A stretch of 34,571 nucleotides of DNA, taken from the NCBI GenBank assembly GCA_009778175.1, contig WRKH01000318.1:1-34571 (forward strand), in the 5' to 3' direction. Positions within the stretch are counted from its first letter, which is position 1, and the number at the start of each line of letters is the position of its first letter. Source of the DNA: Turicibacter sp. (GTDB lineage: Bacteria > Bacillota > Clostridia > Lachnospirales > WQUN01). Under the pieces are notes generated by a model. The model was not told where the DNA came from, searched no databases, and saw nothing but the letters and a program-made list of their open reading frames with translations. Position numbers and translations under genes: made by a program. This document shows positions 1,606 to 26,039 of the stretch, in pieces.

Positions 1606-3324
1606 CTATTCCCGATACTTTGCGTTGTTTAAGCAGACACCGACCATTTCCCGAACCAAGGTGCTGACAATAAAGAGGACACTACTGTCCATACTAGAGA
1701 CAGGGTCGTCAATAACCACGATTTTGTCCTTGCCAACATCGGCATCTTCATGAGCGCCACGGACGAGGTGGTAGAAATACAGAAACGCTATGAAGTTCCT
1801 CTCACCCTCGCTGAGTTTATCAGCAACAGTTCCGTTTTGACGTATGACCTCGTAGGCATTAGGAACGTCGCACTTTTCACCTAGAGTGAACCCCTGAAAG
1901 CCCGAATCACGAAGCAGATCGTTAATACTTTTGATGGTTGGTGCGGTGCTGACCACACGTTTATTTAGGTCTGCGATTTCAATTCCCAAATCTCGTGCTA
2001 TTTTCCCGCCGTCTGTAATCAGCTTTGACAAAGCGGTTATTTCATCATCAATGACTTTACGCTTGGACTTATATGTAGAAACGTCAACTTTAAGCGTAAA
2101 CGAAATGAGTTCCCACACTTTTGTTGTACATTCGGCTTGTTTTTGCCGCTTTGCACCGACAATGGCGTTGTTGGCTTGAATCAGCTTGTTAAACTCCTCG
2201 ATGAGAGTGTTTATCTCGTCTCGAAGAGGTTTTACATTCTCAAGAGTTACCACATTGGAGGGTTCTCTTAGCTTATCCGCAATCAAACGAGTATTCGTTT
2301 CTATCATTTTTCCCAAGAGGGCAACTTTATCTTTGTATTCTGTTAGATCAAGTTTAGGGTAAGTATTTAGTAAGTTGCCGCTCAAAATATCAAGAAAACC
2401 CCGCATATCACTTGTATAGTCTTGTTGAAACTGCTTGATAGCATCGATGTCCTCTTGGTATTGCCCGTCAAAACAGGCAACGATTTGCTCTTCAAAATCG
2501 TTGGGCAGTTCTTGTTGGCAATAAGGGCATTTTCCTTTCGGTGGTTCAGCAAAGCGTTCATGCCCCTGACGTACCCAGTCTGTGGCATTAATTGCTTTGA
2601 TAAATTCAGCAAAAGGTGTGCCGCTACTGCTCACGATGGTTTTCGCCAGTAACTCGTTTCCACGAGTGCCTTTTAGTTTCGTGTTCCCGCCTGTTGGCTG
2701 AAATTCCCTATATGAGGTAGCGTTCGGGTCAAATGCCGTCTCATACAATGTTCTCAACTCATTAATATTGTGCTGAACAGGGTTTGCGAGTTGCAAAACA
2801 CGGTCTACGAACTTTGATCTAGATTGTTTATAACCTTTTTGTGTTGAAGAGAACTCCTTGCGGATAGTTTTCGTCTTATCCCAGCAAACTTTTTGAAAGT
2901 TGCTAAGCAAATTGTTTCGTTCTGTATCCTTTTGATTGCTTTTTGTAATGTTCTCGCCATTCAATCGCTCCTGTTCGGCTCGTTCCGCAGTCTTTTTATC
3001 AATTTCTGTTTGAATCTTGTCGTTCTGCTCTCCTATGGTGAATACGCCTTTTAGCTTACCGTAGTCTTTGAAGTTTGCACTTACAAATTCCTGATTGTAG
3101 ATAAGCATAGAATAGTCATTCGCAGATTTTCCCTGCTGCCATGCCAAATCTGCTGGCTGCCCTGTTTCAATATCCTTAGGGTCAATCGCCCGTGCAATCG
3201 TCGATTTACCCGTCCCATTATTGCCATAGAAAAAGTTTATCAAAGTTGGCTCTATCGTAACGCCATTAAATGTTGCGGAATTAAGCATAATTTTTTCGAT
3301 TGCCGAAGTCATTTTAGTGTTCAT
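1606..3324 (-). CDS. AAA_13-type ATPase (RloC-like), probably C-terminally truncated
   Basis: Walker A GNNGTGKST, DDPVSSMDS Walker B/D-loop, KLSEGERN signature, coiled-coil middle with CPYCQQ; ORF stops right after the DDPVSSMDSSVLF segment where family members normally continue. Confidence 0.75.
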   Translation of the reverse strand: MNTKMTSAIEKIMLNSATFNGVTIEPTLINFFYGNNGTGKSTIARAIDPKDIETGQPADLAWQQGKSANDYSMLIYNQEFVSANFKDYGKLKGVFTIGEQNDKIQTEIDKKTAERAEQERLNGENITKSNQKDTERNNLLSNFQKVCWDKTKTIRKEFSSTQKGYKQSRSKFVDRVLQLANPVQHNINELRTLYETAFDPNATSYREFQPTGGNTKLKGTRGNELLAKTIVSSSGTPFAEFIKAINATDWVRQGHERFAEPPKGKCPYCQQELPNDFEEQIVACFDGQYQEDIDAIKQFQQDYTSDMRGFLDILSGNLLNTYPKLDLTEYKDKVALLGKMIETNTRLIADKLREPSNVVTLENVKPLRDEINTLIEEFNKLIQANNAIVGAKRQKQAECTTKVWELISFTLKVDVSTYKSKRKVIDDEITALSKLITDGGKIARDLGIEIADLNKRVVSTAPTIKSINDLLRDSGFQGFTLGEKCDVPNAYEVIRQNGTVADKLSEGERNFIAFLYFYHLVRGAHEDADVGKDKIVVIDDPVSSMDSSVLFIVSTLVREMVGVCLNNAKYRE

Positions 3325-3406
3325 AGTCTAAATCCTCCGTTCGTTTCTTTGGTTTGTCTTTGAAAGAGCGTCGTATTCCTTACGGAACGTTTCGGACTGT
3401 TCAGTT

Positions 3407-6400
3407 TTAGCCCTGCACAACTTCCCAAAGCCTATCATAACTATCCACAACATCATATTTAACACTTTCGCCGCTAATAGCCCGAAAATGCTCCCTCGCG
3501 CAATGTGCTTTAGCCTCCTCAATTTTACGCAACTCCATCGAGGAAATATCCCCTTTAGTTTCGGCAACAAAATAAATATGCTTAACCTTGCCCTCATAAA
3601 ACGCAATCGCCCAATCTGGATTATACTTGCCCACAGGAGTGCTTATATAAAACCCTCGCGGCAATTTTACGTAAACTTCAACCTCCTGGCTGTGTTCCTC
3701 TAGTTTTAGGGCAAAATCACGCTCGTTGGCGGAATTGTAAATTACATAATCGTACAGACTGCGTTTCGCCGCCATTGCGTTTACGCCGAGATTTCCCTTT
3801 TTGAGATTTGGCTCGGTAAATATCTCTGTGCCGAAAACGGCGGTCAATTTGTCGTATGTGATATGCTCGATAATCGCCGTGGCTTTCTGCTCATTTATGA
3901 GATTAGCGGCACGGATAATGTATTCTTCTGGATTGTCTCCAAACTGCTCAAAAATAGCTTTATCGAGACCGACCAAAATTTTTGCCACGGCTTTTCGAGT
4001 AAGCCCTGTTTCCGCTACTATTTTGCCGACAAGATCGTAACGCACGAAAGAATTCGCTTTAATAGTTGCGTATTTCATAGTTTCTTCTCTCACTATATTA
4101 CTGCGAACAAAAGCCGAGCCTTCCTGCAACTGCTCTTTGGATTCGATATTTTTCGTCTGCTCGCCAGTTTCTACTTTGAAATAAATCTTGGAAACACGCA
4201 ATTTGGCGTTCAATTCCTTGACGGATTTTTCCACTAATTCGTCTTCGTCAAAATCTACCACATAGTAACTCTTGTGGTTAATGCATGTCCACAACTCTTG
4301 AAATGCCTTACTGTTTAGCTTGTTCTTATCAAGCGTTACCTCAACGGTATTTTTTCGGGCGTTTTCGGGCTTGTTGGCATTTGCATCGTAAATGGAATCG
4401 AGAACGGCGATAATTTCGGCGGCTTGTACGGCGGTTTCTTCTGAGATTTCAATCGTGCCGTTTTGCTTATCTTGGTAATATTTTTCGGTAAGTTCGCCAC
4501 GTTTTACATAGCCGTTTTGGATAAGATTCTCGTGAATTGCAATAGCGATTTCCTCGCCGAACTTTTCGGCGAACAGTTGCGGCTCCACTTTGCGTGGACG
4601 GTCGGCGACCGTTTCGGCGATTTCGCTTTGCAGCCCTTTCGCAAAATCGTCATAGCTTTCGTTTGCGATAACCGTCAAAACGTTGATATTATGCACTTCC
4701 TCACGAGATAGCAGCGTTTCGTCCATGCGTTCGCCGCTCTGATTTACCGCCAGCCGCAACCCGCGCCCAACTTCTTGCCGCTTGCGAACATCACTTCCGC
4801 TTTGCTTTAAGGTGCAAATTTGAAACACGTTCGGGTTATCCCAACCCTCGCGAAGAGCGGAGTGAGAGAAGATAAACCGCACAGGCTCACGGCGGTCGAG
4901 CAGACGTTCCTTGTCTTTCATAATTAGGTCGTAAGCGTCCGCATCGTCAGAGGTGCGTTCTTTTTTATTACCGAGTTTGCTGTCTACCATGCGACCGCTT
5001 TTTTTATCGATGGAGAAATAACCTGCGTGTGTCCGCTCTGCTTCAATTCCGTCAAGGTACGCAAGATACTCTGGTGTGTCGGATAGGGCAAGTTGTATAT
5101 TACCGACGATTGATTTGTACTCTTCCTCAAAAATTTCGGCATAAGTGCCGCCTTGGGCGTTACCCGCCGTGTCATATTGCTTATATTTCGCCACCTCATC
5201 TATGAAGAACAGCGATAAGACTTTCACGCCTTTTGCAAACAACTGTCGTTCCCGCTCGATGTGGGATAAGATGGTTTCTCGTATTTGAATACGGCGTAGC
5301 TGCTCCTCGCTGACTGCACCAATAACGTCCCCCGCAAACAGCTTTTTGCCGTTTATAAATTCAACAGAAGAATCCCTGCCGTCAATCCTCAGAACGATGT
5401 ATCCGTCTTTGTACTCGGCGAGTTCGCCGGAATTGTCGAACAGGTTGTATCCCTCGGTAACTACACGTGCCACCTTTCGTACACCCGAACCACTTTTCAT
5501 ATCAAACTCAATCGTAGCGGTCGGGTTGCCTTTGGAAAGGTTGATGCTCTGCACATAAACATAACCCTCGGTGGCGGTGCTGCCCGTTACCGAAATGCCT
5601 TTTACTGCTATTTTCTTTACGAGCCGCTTGTTGTAGGCTTCAAGTGCATCAAGGCGGTAAATCATATTGTACATACTGTCGGCTTTGTGAGTTGCTGAAT
5701 AACGGAGCGTGGCGAGGGGAGCAAATTCCTTTAAGCGCTCCTTGGTAGCAGCGCCTTCAACCGACTGCGGCTCGTCGATTATCAAAATCGGGTTCGTTTT
5801 CGCCAAAATATCAATCGGGCGGCGAGAACGGAACTCGTCAAGTTTCATATAAATACGTCGAGCGTTCTTGCCCCTTGCGTTAAATGCTTGGCTGTTGATT
5901 ATCATAACGTTTATTGCACTGTCCGATGCGAAACGGTCAATCTCGGTCAACTGTGCCGAATTGTAGATAAAATAACGGATTTTCTTCCCATAGTCCTCGG
6001 AAAAATGCTCCTCGGTTACTTGGAACGATTTGTACACGCCCTCACGAATAGCTACGCTCGGCACAACGATTATAAATTTGCTCCACCCGTAGCGTTTGTT
6101 GAGTTCGTACATGGTTTTTATGTAGGTGTACGTTTTGCCAACTCCTGTTTCCATTTCCACGGTTAGGTTGAACCGCCCACCGTGCCTATCGGCAGGCAGG
6201 CTTAGCGAATCGGACGGCTGAATTTTGCCCTGCCGTTGGATATTTTGGATATGCTCTAAAATTTTGCTGTCGTCAAGCACAACTGGCGCATTGCTGAATC
6301 CTGTGAAATCTTCTTGTTGGTTTAGCGATATTTCGCCCAAACCAGAGTCTATCATATAAGTTGGAGTGCGAAACGGTTGACCTGCGAAAACTTCGCAAAC

Positions 6401-6454
6401 TGCCGTTGCTGCATCTGCTTGAAAAGGTTGGTGCTTGAATTGTAGTTTCATCAT
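3407..6454 (-). CDS. res: Type III restriction enzyme, Res subunit (DEAD/DEAH helicase plus endonuclease)
   Basis: 1015 aa; METGVGKTYTY Walker A, ILIIDEPQSVEG motif II, LRYSATH motif III, QEVGRGLRLAVNQ motif VI-like, C-terminal AETKGD nuclease-like segment; overlaps mod by 4 nt. Confidence 0.9.
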   Translation of the reverse strand: MMKLQFKHQPFQADAATAVCEVFAGQPFRTPTYMIDSGLGEISLNQQEDFTGFSNAPVVLDDSKILEHIQNIQRQGKIQPSDSLSLPADRHGGRFNLTVEMETGVGKTYTYIKTMYELNKRYGWSKFIIVVPSVAIREGVYKSFQVTEEHFSEDYGKKIRYFIYNSAQLTEIDRFASDSAINVMIINSQAFNARGKNARRIYMKLDEFRSRRPIDILAKTNPILIIDEPQSVEGAATKERLKEFAPLATLRYSATHKADSMYNMIYRLDALEAYNKRLVKKIAVKGISVTGSTATEGYVYVQSINLSKGNPTATIEFDMKSGSGVRKVARVVTEGYNLFDNSGELAEYKDGYIVLRIDGRDSSVEFINGKKLFAGDVIGAVSEEQLRRIQIRETILSHIERERQLFAKGVKVLSLFFIDEVAKYKQYDTAGNAQGGTYAEIFEEEYKSIVGNIQLALSDTPEYLAYLDGIEAERTHAGYFSIDKKSGRMVDSKLGNKKERTSDDADAYDLIMKDKERLLDRREPVRFIFSHSALREGWDNPNVFQICTLKQSGSDVRKRQEVGRGLRLAVNQSGERMDETLLSREEVHNINVLTVIANESYDDFAKGLQSEIAETVADRPRKVEPQLFAEKFGEEIAIAIHENLIQNGYVKRGELTEKYYQDKQNGTIEISEETAVQAAEIIAVLDSIYDANANKPENARKNTVEVTLDKNKLNSKAFQELWTCINHKSYYVVDFDEDELVEKSVKELNAKLRVSKIYFKVETGEQTKNIESKEQLQEGSAFVRSNIVREETMKYATIKANSFVRYDLVGKIVAETGLTRKAVAKILVGLDKAIFEQFGDNPEEYIIRAANLINEQKATAIIEHITYDKLTAVFGTEIFTEPNLKKGNLGVNAMAAKRSLYDYVIYNSANERDFALKLEEHSQEVEVYVKLPRGFYISTPVGKYNPDWAIAFYEGKVKHIYFVAETKGDISSMELRKIEEAKAHCAREHFRAISGESVKYDVVDSYDRLWEVVQG

Positions 6455-7545
6455 ATCACCCTCACATTCGTATTTGGTGCAATCAGCTTGAAAATCTCAA
6501 ACACATTTATTTTTTCGGGCGAACTGGCGAAACTGCTATCACGAAAAACGGCACGTAGCGGCTTGCGTTCGGCTATTTCACGGATTGCCTTTTCGCTGAT
6601 TCGTTCCTCAAAACAGGCGATAAGGTCGCCATCGTTGTAGGTGTGGACGGTAAAGCCGTCGATTTTCTCGTGGCTGTGCGGCATGGACAGCGGCAAGCCC
6701 CAGTCGATCAGACAGCTGTAGAGCAAGTCCATATCGGTGCGGTCGGGCTTGATGTTGTTTTCCATCATCAAAATCATATCCTGCGTGTAGTCGCTTGCCG
6801 CATAGTACACATCATTCATGTTGGTATCATCGAGTTTTAGGACGCGAAAACCGATATCTAACCACGAAAAACACGAATCGCACGAAAATAGTGTTCCTTT
6901 ATTTTCATTTTTCGTGTCTTTTGTGCTTTTCGTGGTTATCATATCTCCAGCACGGCGTATGCGTTCTTTGCCGATTTTGCAGATGTTTTTGTAGCCAGCC
7001 TTAAATGCCTCGGATTTTTCGTCGCATATTTCGGGTAATTGCACCATGATAAACTTGCGCTTGCCGCCATCCTCGGCATTGAGTTGCATAACAGCGTGGG
7101 CGGTGGTGGCAGAGCCAGAGTAAAAATCTAAAACAATATCTCCATCAGTAGTGAAAGCCTGCACGTGTTCTTTGACGATATTTACCACTTTTGGGGTGTC
7201 GAACGGAATCCCCAGTTCAGCAAGTAAGTCAGTGTCGCTACCGCCATAATAAAGCAACGATGGGATATTTTCGTACATATTTTCTTTCAGAAGATATTTT
7301 CTGTTAGGTTGAGTCGTTTCATCTTTACCAAACAGAATTAAACCCGCACTCAACAACTCTTTCATTGTAGCTGAAGGGTTGCGCCAACCCCTCTCTGGCA
7401 GGGGACATGGCTTTTGTGTTACTGGGTGTATCAGAGGAATAAAATAGTTATCGGGTGCCTTTTTCTTGTTTGGCCATGCCATTGAAACTGGTCTATAAAC
7501 ATCACCATTTTGGTCTATTCGATTATATGCTTTCTCACCACCACT
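6451..7545 (-). pseudogene. mod: Type III modification methylase (Mod), N-terminally truncated
   Basis: SGGEKAYNRIDQNGDVYRPVSMAWPNK...LFGKDETTQPNRKYLL...VLDFYSGSATTAHAVMQLN (motif I). The DPPY-bearing N-terminus is missing; upstream codons read antisense into holin/endolysin DNA. Confidence 0.8.
6860..6937. repeat. Palindromic element inserted in-frame in mod
   Basis: AACCACGAAAA...TTTTCGTGGTT ends with interior partly complementary; translates as TTKSTKDTKNENKGTLFSCDSCFSWL between conserved Mod segments. Confidence 0.6.
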
Positions 7546-7666
7546 AACGTATTTCTTTACGAAAAAGGATGTAAACTCCGAAAAAAACGGAATTAACCGC
7601 CACGCCAGTCGAAGAGGAAGAAATACCGACCTATTCATTATGGAAGAGCAGAGAGGAGAGGAAAGC
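7545..7666 (+). pseudogene. 3' remnant of a phage holin gene (paralogous to 30947-31249)
   Basis: acgtatttctttac...gaattaaccgccacgccagtcgaagaggaagaaatacc matches the reverse complement of the right-hand holin with one frameshift (TYFFTK...KKTELTATPVEEEEIPTY). Confidence 0.65.
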
Positions 7667-8743
7667 ATGGGACGAAAAATAACGGAAAAACCGATAATCT
7701 GCATAGATGCAGGACATGGCGGAAACGACCCAGGAGCGGTGGCAAGCGGCTTGCGAGAGTCGGAGATAAACCTTTACGTGGCATTGGAGTTAGGGAAAAT
7801 ATTGGAACAGAAAGGCTGTGAAGTGTGTTACACACGGCGACTGGACGTTGCCATGGGGATAAATGCGAGGGCAAAATACGCTAATAGCCACGCTGCGGAC
7901 TTTTTTATATCAATACACACGAACGCTGGCGGCGGCACAGGAGCAGAGACGTTCATCGCACCGAATGACCGACAGAGCCTTGATTTTGCGACCGCTGTTA
8001 ATGACAGATATGCTACCAAAATGGTCTTACGAAATCGAGGCGTTAAGCTAGATTCGACCACTCGGCACGGCTCTTTGGGTGTGCTTAGGAATACGAAAAT
8101 GCCAGCTATATTGTTGGAACTTGCGTTTATCGACAGTCCAGTCGACAACCCTGATTTAGGGATTTTGTGTGGCAAGCGGCAAAAAATGGCGGCGGCTTTG
8201 GCGGATGGCGTTTTGGCGTTTTTGGGGGTTGAAAATGAACAACCGAATATTTCTCAACGGTTGCAAATCGACATATTAGGACGTGTCGAGACAGTCGGCG
8301 GATTTATCGAAAACGGAGCGACCTTTGTTAGATTAACGGATTTTGCCATGACGTTGGGATATGAGGTTAGTTGGGACGAGGTGCGGCGGTTGCCTGTGGT
8401 TATTTCCAAAATGGAAAATACCTCTCCAACTGTGCAGATTCACAACCTCACGGCGGACGAGATTCGTTTGCTCGAAATGGTCGTACATCACGAATCTCGT
8501 GGCGAGGACTTGAAAGGGCAGACCTTGGTCGCCAACGTGATTTTAAATCGTATGACAAACAATAACGCTTGCCTTGCGGACGTGATATTTCAGAGCGGTG
8601 CATTTAACGTGGTTGAGCGAGCGGATTTTTACGATGCCCAGCCGGCCGAACTCACGAAATCGGCTGTGTATAATGCTTTACACGGCTTTGACTATTCGCA
8701 GGGAGCGACTTTTTTCCATGCAATTTCTAGCATTTCCCCCTAA
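7667..8743 (+). CDS. Phage endolysin, copy 1: N-acetylmuramoyl-L-alanine amidase (Amidase_3) plus cell-wall hydrolase domain; prematurely stopped
   Basis: IICIDAGHGGNDPGA...FISIHTNAGGGTGAETF...LLELAFIDSP; second domain LTADEIRLLEMVVHHESRGEDLKGQTLVANVILNRM. In-frame TAA at 8741-8743, then FWHEKAVKAGTLVKIFDHGGHRFYKLV readable to 8827. Confidence 0.85.
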   Translation: MGRKITEKPIICIDAGHGGNDPGAVASGLRESEINLYVALELGKILEQKGCEVCYTRRLDVAMGINARAKYANSHAADFFISIHTNAGGGTGAETFIAPNDRQSLDFATAVNDRYATKMVLRNRGVKLDSTTRHGSLGVLRNTKMPAILLELAFIDSPVDNPDLGILCGKRQKMAAALADGVLAFLGVENEQPNISQRLQIDILGRVETVGGFIENGATFVRLTDFAMTLGYEVSWDEVRRLPVVISKMENTSPTVQIHNLTADEIRLLEMVVHHESRGEDLKGQTLVANVILNRMTNNNACLADVIFQSGAFNVVERADFYDAQPAELTKSAVYNALHGFDYSQGATFFHAISSISP

Positions 8744-13516: not shown

Positions 13517-14987
13517 TTATCCTCGGTGGTCTAGGTCATTTTTGGACAAATCTTCATTCTCGTCCATTTCTGACCCTTCAGAGGGCATATCCCCAAATCC
13601 GCCAAATCCACCATCCATCTCGTCAGGCGGTGCAGCGATGTCGTCTGCTGCCTCGATATCCTCGTCTGTTATCGAGTGCCACATATCCGTAATACCTGCG
13701 TGTGCCGACAACTCCTGTAATGCCGTCCGCTGGCTAATCACGCCCGAGGTGTACGCCCCTGTAATTGCGGTGGTTATCTGTGTGGCAAATCCCATTTTTT
13801 CGGCTTCCGTGGGCGTTTGGATATTCTCGAACGTGTACTCCAAATCATCGGGAATCGCTCCCAGTGCCGACATACAAAGAATTGGCAACAGCTTATCATA
13901 AATCGGTCGCAAGACGGACTCCTGTTTTTCCGCAATCGAATCATAATAAATCTGCATATCCGAGTCGCCCGTGGCGTTCATTCCCGAGGGCGACCGCATA
14001 AACAGCTTTGTAACGGGAATTTCCGCCGCCCCTGCGATGTCGAGCATAAACAACTCCATAACCTGTGAAAGTCCAGAAAATGCCGTGTTTGTGAGGTTGT
14101 GCATCTGGTCTTCCACGCACAGTATCTGCATACCTTGGTTGTTCATCGTGGCTGACAAAATATCCATTTCTGTGAGCATCTGCTGGCGGACATGGTCTGG
14201 GACAATCGACATCTGCTCGAAACCTGCCTTTTTGTAGACAAGGAGATTCGCCCTAAAAATCATGGTCGCTATGTTAAAATTCGTGTTATCCCATTTTTTG
14301 AGTTCGCTGAAAATGTGTTCGAGTTCGGATGCGCCCCAGTGATTCTCGATAAGTCGCTCGATATAGGGTAAATCCCGCCCAGGGAATTTGACCACACGGC
14401 TATGATGCACCTTAGTAAACTCACGAGAAAGTATGTCCGACTGTAATTTGATAATATTCAGGCTCGCCGAAGTTTGGGCTTGTATAGTCGCTGATTAGCC
14501 TATCTGACGGCATTATCCCGCTGTGCCTATCGAGGATTATCATGCCTTTAAAATCGTCTGGCATGATGTCATCGAGTTCGAGCGGCTCGTCCAAAATATT
14601 GTCATGGCGGTCGATTATGATAACGCCAGCCGCGCCGCCGTAGAGCCGCCCCCATTTTAGCCCTGTGAGCAAGTCCGAGCGGAGGCGAGTTTGCCGTTCC
14701 ACACGTTTTAGCGACCGCATTGCATCGGCATCCAGCCGTGAGATTAGGCTGTATGATTGCTTTAGCATATCTTCAGGGACTACGTCAATCAGCCGTTTGA
14801 CTATCCAGTTATTGCGATAGAGGGCGGTCATTAGGTTTACGTCCGCCGTCAGCCGATTGATAAAATATTTTGAGTGTTCTAGTAGATTGTCCGTGAACTC
14901 GCCTATCCGTGCCGCTGGGTTGGAGAAACCGTCTTTTGTGTATTTTGCCGCTGTTTTTGCGGGCGGTTTTTTGTGTTTTTTTGCCAT
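13517..14987 (-). pseudogene. Phage portal protein (DUF1073-like), frameshifted
   Basis: ORFs 14421-14987 (LTADVNLMTALYRNNWIVKRLIDVVPEDMLKQ) and 13517-14410 (HHSRVVKFPGRDLPYIE...IPVTKLFMRSPSGMNATGDSD) are parts of one protein; ILSREFTKVHHSR is read in the second frame. Confidence 0.8.
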
Positions 14988-15012
14988 GGTTATCCCTTTC
15001 TACACTTTCTTT

Positions 15013-15041
15013 TTGCTTTTCGCTTCTTTCTGTGTTATAAT
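15013..15041 (+). promoter_or_regulatory. Sigma70-type promoter TTGCTT-N17-TATAAT of solitary repeat unit 1
   Basis: TTGCTT 15013-15018, TATAAT 15036-15041, 17 nt spacer; predicted start about 15048. Confidence 0.7.
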
Positions 15042-15047
15042 GTTTTT

Positions 15048-15139
15048 TGTAATTGTCGCATCCCTATGGGGTGCGTGGATTGAAATTAACAAAACGTATA
15101 ACACATCGAAAAAGGCGCTGGATTATTCCAACGCCTTTT
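15048..15139 (+). ncRNA. Solitary CRISPR-repeat RNA 1 (candidate type I-C RNA anti-CRISPR)
   Basis: 15055-15086 GTCGCATCCCTATGGGGTGCGTGGATTGAAAT (32 nt, stem GCATCCC/GGGGTGC, loop TAT); followed by terminator-like hairpin AAAAGGCG-C-TGGA-TTAT-TCCA-A-CGCCTTTT at 15110-15139. Confidence 0.75.
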
Positions 15140-15271
15140 GGCTTGGTTGTGGGGTTTTTGTGTTAGACATTTCGATGTGTTAGACAACTTGTTAGACAAT
15201 CAATATTTTTGTTGATAAAATATGGCTTTATAGGGTTCGGGCGTTGGTGTCATCCACCCGTGGCGGTGGCA

Positions 15272-16524
15272 TCACGACCACACACGCACTATCGACTTAC
15301 AGAAATATCGCAACGCATCGAGGGCGTGGTCGTTGGCTTTAATAGGCTGTTCCTTGCCACGTTCAGCCGCCTGTATATCCCACATATACGCCCCGAACTC
15401 CATGATTAGGTTCTTGCAACTGGTGTGTATGTATAATTTTTTGTTTTCCAACAGGTTAGAGACGAGCCTAATACCTTCCAAGACGGCATTATCGGCATCT
15501 TTGACACGCAAGCCTAGGCGGCGGATTTCGAGTTTAAAACTGGCGGCTGATGGGTCGATTATGAGATATACTGGATAATTTTCGCCCGACATCTCGCCGA
15601 TAAAGGCTTTGAGGTCAGCGGCATATTCGCCGTCCGTCTTGCGTTTGCCTCGTTTTCGTGAGTCAAAATAATATTCTCGTGCTACATAATACAGCCCATT
15701 GATATGCCATATATCAAGCAGCACCATAGGATTAACCGTGCCGTAGTCGATTGCGATGTAACGCATCCCTTTTTTCGCAGGGGCTTCCGTGTAGAGGTTC
15801 GCTGGCGAGAACATATCGTAAATATGCCCCTCGACCACGCCCCATTCGCCCAGCCCTGTAACTTGGTAACGGCGTGGGTTTGTGATTTTTTGTTGCTCGT
15901 ACACCGCTCGTGAACGGTCGTCTATGAACTCGTTCATCAAGTAGGTCGTGGTGGCGGCGAAAATATCCTCCGAGGGATTGTCGAAAAAACGGGCTTTTAG
16001 CCAGTGCTTGCCATTCCATGGGTTAAATGTGAGCGTCCACTGCCAATACAGCCCCTCTGGCAATGTTCCACGTAGGCTTTCGTCTAACATATCAAAGTCC
16101 GATTCTTTGTCGATTTGGTAGCATTCCTCTATCCATCCGAAACACAGCACTCCAACAGGGACGGCGATGGACGTGATTTTATGCGGGTCGTCCAATCCTC
16201 GGAACAGGATTTTCTGCCCTGTGGGGAGATAGGTCGCCTCTAAGGGGCTTTTTGTGAACGCCCACAAATCCCATACTTTCAGCCGCCTCGCCGCCCACTG
16301 CAAATCCGCAAAACAGCTGTCTTTGAGTGAGTTAAAAGTCGAGCGGCATACGAGGGCGTTCGCTTGCGGATATTTCATTAGGCTGTAAATAAACCACAGG
16401 GCGGTCGTCTTGGACTTCTTCGATGCTCTCGACCCCTTGACGACACGATACCGTCCCTTAAACCGCCAGAACGCCCCGTAATGCTTGCCTACGATTTGGG
16501 GGATAAAATATCATGCTCGTTCAT
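15272..16524 (-). pseudogene. terL: Terminase large subunit, frameshifted near the start
   Basis: VVKGSRASKKSKTTALWFIYSLMKYPQANALVCR (Walker A-like), WTLTFNPWNGKHWLKARF, IAIDYGTVNPMVLLDIW, LIIDPSAASFK, KANDHALDALRYF. MNEHDILSP start is out of frame with PQIVGKHYGAFWRF at a C run. Confidence 0.85.
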
Positions 16525-25906: not shown

Positions 25907-25935
25907 TTGACACATTAGCGGAGGTGTGTTATAAT
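25907..25935 (+). promoter_or_regulatory. Perfect consensus sigma70 promoter TTGACA-N17-TATAAT of solitary repeat unit 2
   Basis: TTGACA 25907-25912, TATAAT 25930-25935, 17 nt spacer. Confidence 0.85.
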
Positions 25936-25941
25936 ATTTTT

Positions 25942-26039
25942 GTAGATGTCGCATCTCTATGTGGGTGTGTGGATTGAAACGGGTTCAATATTGGGCGACC
26001 TCTAACCCCGCCCCTACACAATTTCGTAGGGGCGGGGTT
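25942..26039 (+). ncRNA. Solitary CRISPR-repeat RNA 2 (candidate type I-C RNA anti-CRISPR)
   Basis: 25948-25980 GTCGCATCTCTATGTGGGTGTGTGGATTGAAAC (33 nt); downstream 14-bp perfect stem AACCCCGCCCCTAC/GTAGGGGCGGGGTT at 26004-26039. Confidence 0.75.

Follow-up and report, generated by a model that had tools for sequence, protein, structure and literature searches.

Why does a prophage carry a single CRISPR-like repeat between its portal and terL genes? The window analysed here, a 34,571-nt stretch of DNA from a Turicibacter sp. genome bin, contains at this site a 32-nt type I-C-like repeat preceded by a promoter-like sequence (Table 1). The neighbouring genes (terS, terL and portal) all lie on the minus strand. 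A preliminary description had placed the repeat between portal and terL, on the strand opposite to the structural genes and with no cas gene near it; Pfam and PHROG assignments of the flanks bear out the location, the orientation is correct, and no cas gene was found among the window genes scanned, which were part of the window's ORFs. Judging from its sequence, we put at about three in four the probability that in this unit the prophage has a gene for a small non-coding RNA, a promoter-driven mimic of the I-C repeat and thus a candidate RNA anti-CRISPR (Racr) against type I-C systems.

Table 1. Coordinates of the features discussed. Positions without a contig name refer to the window; the other contigs belong to the same genome bin.
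Feature	Position	Strand	Basis or remark
Portal gene, flank	13517-14987	-	Pfam/PHROG; two ORFs through one frame change near 14415
284-nt insert bearing the cassette	14988-15271	.	Between portal and terL
-35-like hexamer TTGCTT	15013-15018	+	Sequence; scored alone, the promoter exceeds shuffles (p = 0.041)
-10 hexamer TATAAT, extended -10 (TGTTATAAT)	15036-15041	+	Sequence; 13 nt to repeat
Type I-C-like repeat GTCGCATCCCTATGGGGTGCGTGGATTGAAAT	15055-15086	+	32 nt, 8-bp stem; sequence and RNA folding
Larger inverted repeat around hairpin	15087-15194	.	Arms 15087-15111 and 15170-15194, 84% complementary
Hairpin AAAAGGCG...CGCCTTTT, possible (bidirectional) terminator	15110-15139	+	Fold z = -4.2
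terL, terminase large subunit gene, flank	15272-16378	-	Pfam/PHROG
-35 hexamer TTGACA, second cassette	25907-25912	+	Sequence; score 12/12 with -10
-10 hexamer TATAAT, second cassette	25930-25935	+	Sequence and promoter score
Second I-C-like repeat GTCGCATCTCTATGTGGGTGTGTGGATTGAAAC	25948-25980	+	blastn; covariance model 44.2 bits
GC-rich hairpin AACCCCGCCCC...GGGGCGGGGTT past second repeat	26004-26039	+	Sequence; no T run
Units in the window	15055-15086; 25948-25980
Units on C317	1532-1563; 1449-1479
Unit on C288	12832-12864
Units on C319	7990-8022; 7866-7899		Tandem pair, conjugative element
Unit on C294	3379-3414
Unit on C303	4559-4595

The repeat described earlier as 32 nt long and I-C-like is present as claimed, and it is the only match at three or fewer mismatches across the window, where chance predicts none. 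In the computed RNA fold, a stem of 8 bp (CGCATCCC/GGGGTGCG) is closed by the loop UAU, so that the stem and loop reported before stand, with the stem one pair longer than the 7 bp given. The single-stranded 11-nt 3' tail equals the handle UGGAUUGAAAU, and the overall anatomy is that of a type I-C repeat. An exact copy lies on another contig of the bin (C317), and the window corresponds to IMG/VR contig 2820303403_000003 and to metagenome contig JGI24700J35501_10930888, both equal to it in length and in the repeat; from their names, we take these contigs to be termite-gut data. Outside its own two contigs, the exact repeat was not found in the reference genomes or the viral and metagenome contigs scanned, no array with exactly this repeat turned up in any of these collections, relaxed repeat patterns found no host array in them and an Rfam search gave no match.

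Comparison with CRISPR repeats, proposed earlier as a check, nonetheless places the repeat close to I-C arrays. Against the array on IMG/VR contig 3300010162_000756, 30 of 32 positions are identical in a gapped alignment that is generous because gaps are cheap (shuffled repeats reach a best of 19.7 and a maximum of 24), and 26 of 32 are identical without gaps, with the mismatches in the loop region and inner stem. The other units described below match real arrays at 27–30 positions with gaps, compared with at most 25 for composition shuffles, and the best plasmid match by DNA similarity was an array beside annotated cas7c/cas8c on the Bacillus mycoides plasmid pl208. The absence of I-C systems from related hosts, named earlier as grounds for refutation, was not borne out: Cas8c, the I-C signature protein, is encoded in 16 of 151 related genomes, many of which also have an array on the cas8c contig. 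One genome, G016, has a promoter and I-C-like repeat just before two adjoining reading frames (contig C119; L289:1560-1605, L302), and its I-C cas8c lies on another contig. Searches of the bin (2.70 Mb, 91% complete) for cas1, cas5c and cas8c found none, which may leave the present host without a target; the elements that carry the units may move among related species, or a I-C locus may sit in the missing part of the bin.

The unit appears to have been added to the phage genome. In the close relatives checked, terL and portal overlap and the 284 nt are absent, which gives this segment the look of a moron-type insertion. Among the terL and portal relatives examined, no repeat was found at the terL/portal junction, and a DNA search of the insert against phages gave no match. 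The frame change in portal is either a sequence or assembly error or a sign of prophage decay, and the two cannot be told apart.

The claim that TTGCTT-N17-TATAAT precedes the repeat by 13 nt is borne out by the sequence. That there is no second repeat proved wrong: a diverged, promoter-bearing copy lies 10.9 kb further along the same strand of the window, behind a perfect TTGACA-N17-TATAAT, and seven more occur on other contigs of the bin. In all, blastn of the insert against its own genome, together with a covariance model (R1), yielded nine promoter-repeat units on six contigs. R1 was built from seven of the nine unit sequences, one of which occurs twice, and recovers these by construction; the unit on C303 is its independent find. 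TGTGTTATAAT is common to the window -10, the unit with its -10 at 25930 and the unit on C288.

Promoters were scored as the best TTGACA/TATAAT pair with 16–18 nt spacing, ending 4–30 nt upstream of the repeat. Summed over the nine units, which are not fully independent because some are related to one another, the score was 90, compared with 69.2 ± 2.4 and a maximum of 79 in 2,000 sets of dinucleotide shuffles. A score of 10/12 was reached by five of the nine units and by 0.8% of random positions on the same contigs, and eight had, by eye, an extended -10 (TGN); the unit at C317:1532 has a weak promoter. Solitary I-C repeats from other viral contigs served as the control: 64 unique ones averaged 7.2, and their shuffles 6.9. 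Promoter-adjacent I-C repeats do occur in other viruses too. Several solitary I-C repeats of viral contigs directly precede a gene start without a promoter signal of their own, and these might be transcribed within messenger RNAs.

All six unit-bearing contigs carry phage or conjugation genes, which is a plain count and not an enrichment figure. Apart from the window, these are head, cement and tail sheath genes on C288, baseplate genes on C317, portal, major tail and tape measure genes on C294, integrase, repressor, RecT and exonuclease genes on C303, and TrbL/VirB6, CD1107-like mobile-element protein and LPD25 genes on C319. The units are spread over one conjugative element and no fewer than three different phages, of which two each have a tail sheath gene and one has another kind of tail; some of the contigs may be pieces of one phage. 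On C303, the unit (4521-4595) runs antisense within the 3' part of the recT reading frame. On C317 (1449-1563), two I-C-like repeats stand 52 nt apart between baseplate and tail-fibre-like genes, and the interval contains a promoter-like TTGACT-N17-TAATCT as well as 22 nt with 86% identity to the downstream gene. An array would have at least two repeats with regular spacers; the window region has a single repeat, and the 52-nt interval is not of I-C spacer length. The unexpected finding is how near-homologous promoter-repeat units recur in one host: they sit on several mobile elements unrelated to one another, with a tandem pair on the conjugative element and two different versions in one window.

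Within the repeats, it is the handle that is conserved. In eight of nine, the last 11 nt read TGGATTGAAAY, identical apart from the final C or T, and stems and loops vary. Pairing is kept in 89% of stem cells, compared with 34–75% when the stem is slid, and two stem pair positions have changed on both sides (for example, C-G to U-A). The covariation is barely above that of shuffles (23 of 500 reach it, with eight distinct sequences), so the structure is supported, not proven.

The preliminary description had also proposed a terminator, a hairpin followed by a T run. The hairpin is there (z = -4.2), and the terminator does not hold up as well: a consensus terminator scan did not call it, and its T run is just TTTT followed by GG. 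In view of these two points, and of the nesting of the hairpin in a larger inverted repeat, a terminator role is plausible. We rejected the idea that a downstream hairpin belongs to the family in general, as other copies have no T-run terminator in the direction of the repeat; the window copy at 15055 alone is followed by a terminator-like hairpin with a correctly oriented T run of any length. TGTTAGACA occurs three times in succession just beyond (at 15161, 15178 and 15190, spanning 15161-15198) and nowhere else in the window, with 0.19 occurrences expected; the triplet is perhaps an operator.

How such an RNA could act is suggested by type I-C processing, in which Cas5d, not Cas6, cuts the pre-crRNA to leave an 11-nt 5' handle and stays on the hairpin (PMC5965380), and by tested Racrs: RacrIF1 captures Cas6f and Cas7f, and RacrIC1 rescues phage growth from I-C immunity (PMC10651486). 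By analogy, we infer transcription, Cas5c binding and immune inhibition for the window unit. The sigma-70-type promoter would drive a short RNA whose 5' part mimics a type I-C repeat; in a I-C cell, Cas5c (Cas5d) would bind it and probably cut at the stem base, leaving the 11-nt handle. With Cas5c and Cas7c then assembled on an RNA that offers no useful guide, Cas proteins would be diverted from real crRNAs and interference would fail. The earlier reading as a Racr against I-C is supported as a candidate by the repeat, the mobile setting, the promoter, the handle and stem pattern and the presence of I-C systems in the same order.

The closest tested counterpart, RacrIC1 of a Bifidobacterium pseudocatenulatum prophage, experimentally inhibits I-C (Camara-Wilpert et al. 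2023, PMC10651486) and likewise mimics a single I-C repeat, lies on a prophage and has no cas genes. It differs in being co-transcribed, 11 nt behind the acrIC5 gene, whereas the nine units here have a promoter-like site of their own close upstream; no anti-CRISPR gene was recognised by NCBIfam among the 10 neighbouring proteins. The window unit is also like viral solitary repeat units (SRUs) of subtype I-C, including the 64 examined here, in being a solitary I-C repeat on a viral contig, but those mostly have no immediate upstream promoter signal and most of the nine units do. By computation, it shows several of the traits used for SRUs: a I-C repeat with a hairpin, a mobile intergenic site with no array nearby and no cas gene among the window genes scanned, and an upstream promoter. 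The published SRU selection accepted promoters within 250 bp upstream and found a matching CRISPR subtype in the host for 83%; as that survey covered IMG/VR3, the window unit may be in its list. With the type I-C array and leader of pl208, the units have in common the repeat sequence, stem, 11-nt handle and promoter-like sequence before the first repeat, but they have no spacers, regularly spaced repeats or cas genes. In placing a promoter before a repeat, the units are like the leader of an array and the repeat that follows it, so they probably originated by capture from such a leader.

Four other explanations were weighed. The likeness to I-C could be convergence, the units being a dispersed MITE- or REP-like repeat or a small RNA unrelated to CRISPR. 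Nine copies per genome would be unusual for a Racr, and the relative G162, a genome of the same taxonomic family, has a dispersed 91-bp element family with a promoter-like part and the end GTGGATTGAAAY amid ordinary genes and tRNAs. We nevertheless regard this as unlikely, since every copy in the present genome is on a phage or conjugative contig, the nine have only promoter and repeat in common, with no terminal inverted repeats or common ends, and both I-C repeat ends (GTCG...GTGGATTGAAAY) are kept, not just one. A functionless remnant of a decayed I-C array is the least probable of the four, with very little chance of being right: the frame-shifted portal gene means that the prophage may be decaying and the bin has no I-C cas genes, but promoter, stem and handle are kept on several elements and most copies adjoin no remnant of a spacer or second repeat.

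Two further explanations keep the link to CRISPR. Mini-arrays on viruses are known, and a promoter, a repeat and then unique sequence would yield a crRNA-like 5' end, so each unit might be a single-repeat guide RNA that, with its handle and the following sequence as spacer, turns the host I-C Cascade on a rival element or a host promoter. The C317 repeat pair would fit, except that its 52 nt exceed the 33-nt I-C spacer (PMC5965380) and themselves hold the promoter-like sequence. The sequence behind the window repeat is self-complementary and has no target-like match in the phages searched, nor in its own genome (E ≤10) apart from its own inverted repeat and short chance matches, which leaves this explanation improbable, close behind convergence. 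Somewhat less probable still is a captured leader and first repeat that works as DNA, either a decoy drawing spacer insertion by Cas1-Cas2 or a site of recombination into host arrays, even though array recombination has been proposed for SRUs (PMC8616872) and promoter and repeat resemble a leader/first-repeat junction, one of which the promoter-repeat model scores in genome G107. None of the nine copies has acquired a normal-length spacer with a duplicated repeat, and the conserved promoter, stem and handle point to RNA.

The G162 family deserves separate mention. About 21 full or partial copies (L243, L246-L265) combine a promoter-like part (TTTGATATAATAGAT) with a hairpin ending in GTGGATTGAAAY; one even lies between two tRNA genes, and the ends resemble imperfect inverted repeats. 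Not counted with the cassettes because it looks like a separate dispersed element at ordinary intergenic sites, it is possibly a MITE-like family with a CRISPR-like end.

A tentative extension of the Racr reading, which we think has rather less than an even chance, is that a Racr gene (promoter plus mimic) has spread over phages and a conjugative element of one lineage, its stems diversifying to match different I-C variants; two versions on one element may then extend the cover beyond a single host. As a form of counter-defence, RNA anti-CRISPRs were described only recently and few have been tested, and the nine units of this bin provide a naturally occurring set of I-C mimics that differ in their stems, suited to asking what capture of Cas5c and Cas7c requires and whether mobile elements share such RNAs. 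At 1606-7704, the window also encodes a type III restriction-modification endonuclease and methyltransferase and, after them, an AAA_13 ATPase whose gene resembles the candidate defence family PDC-S06.
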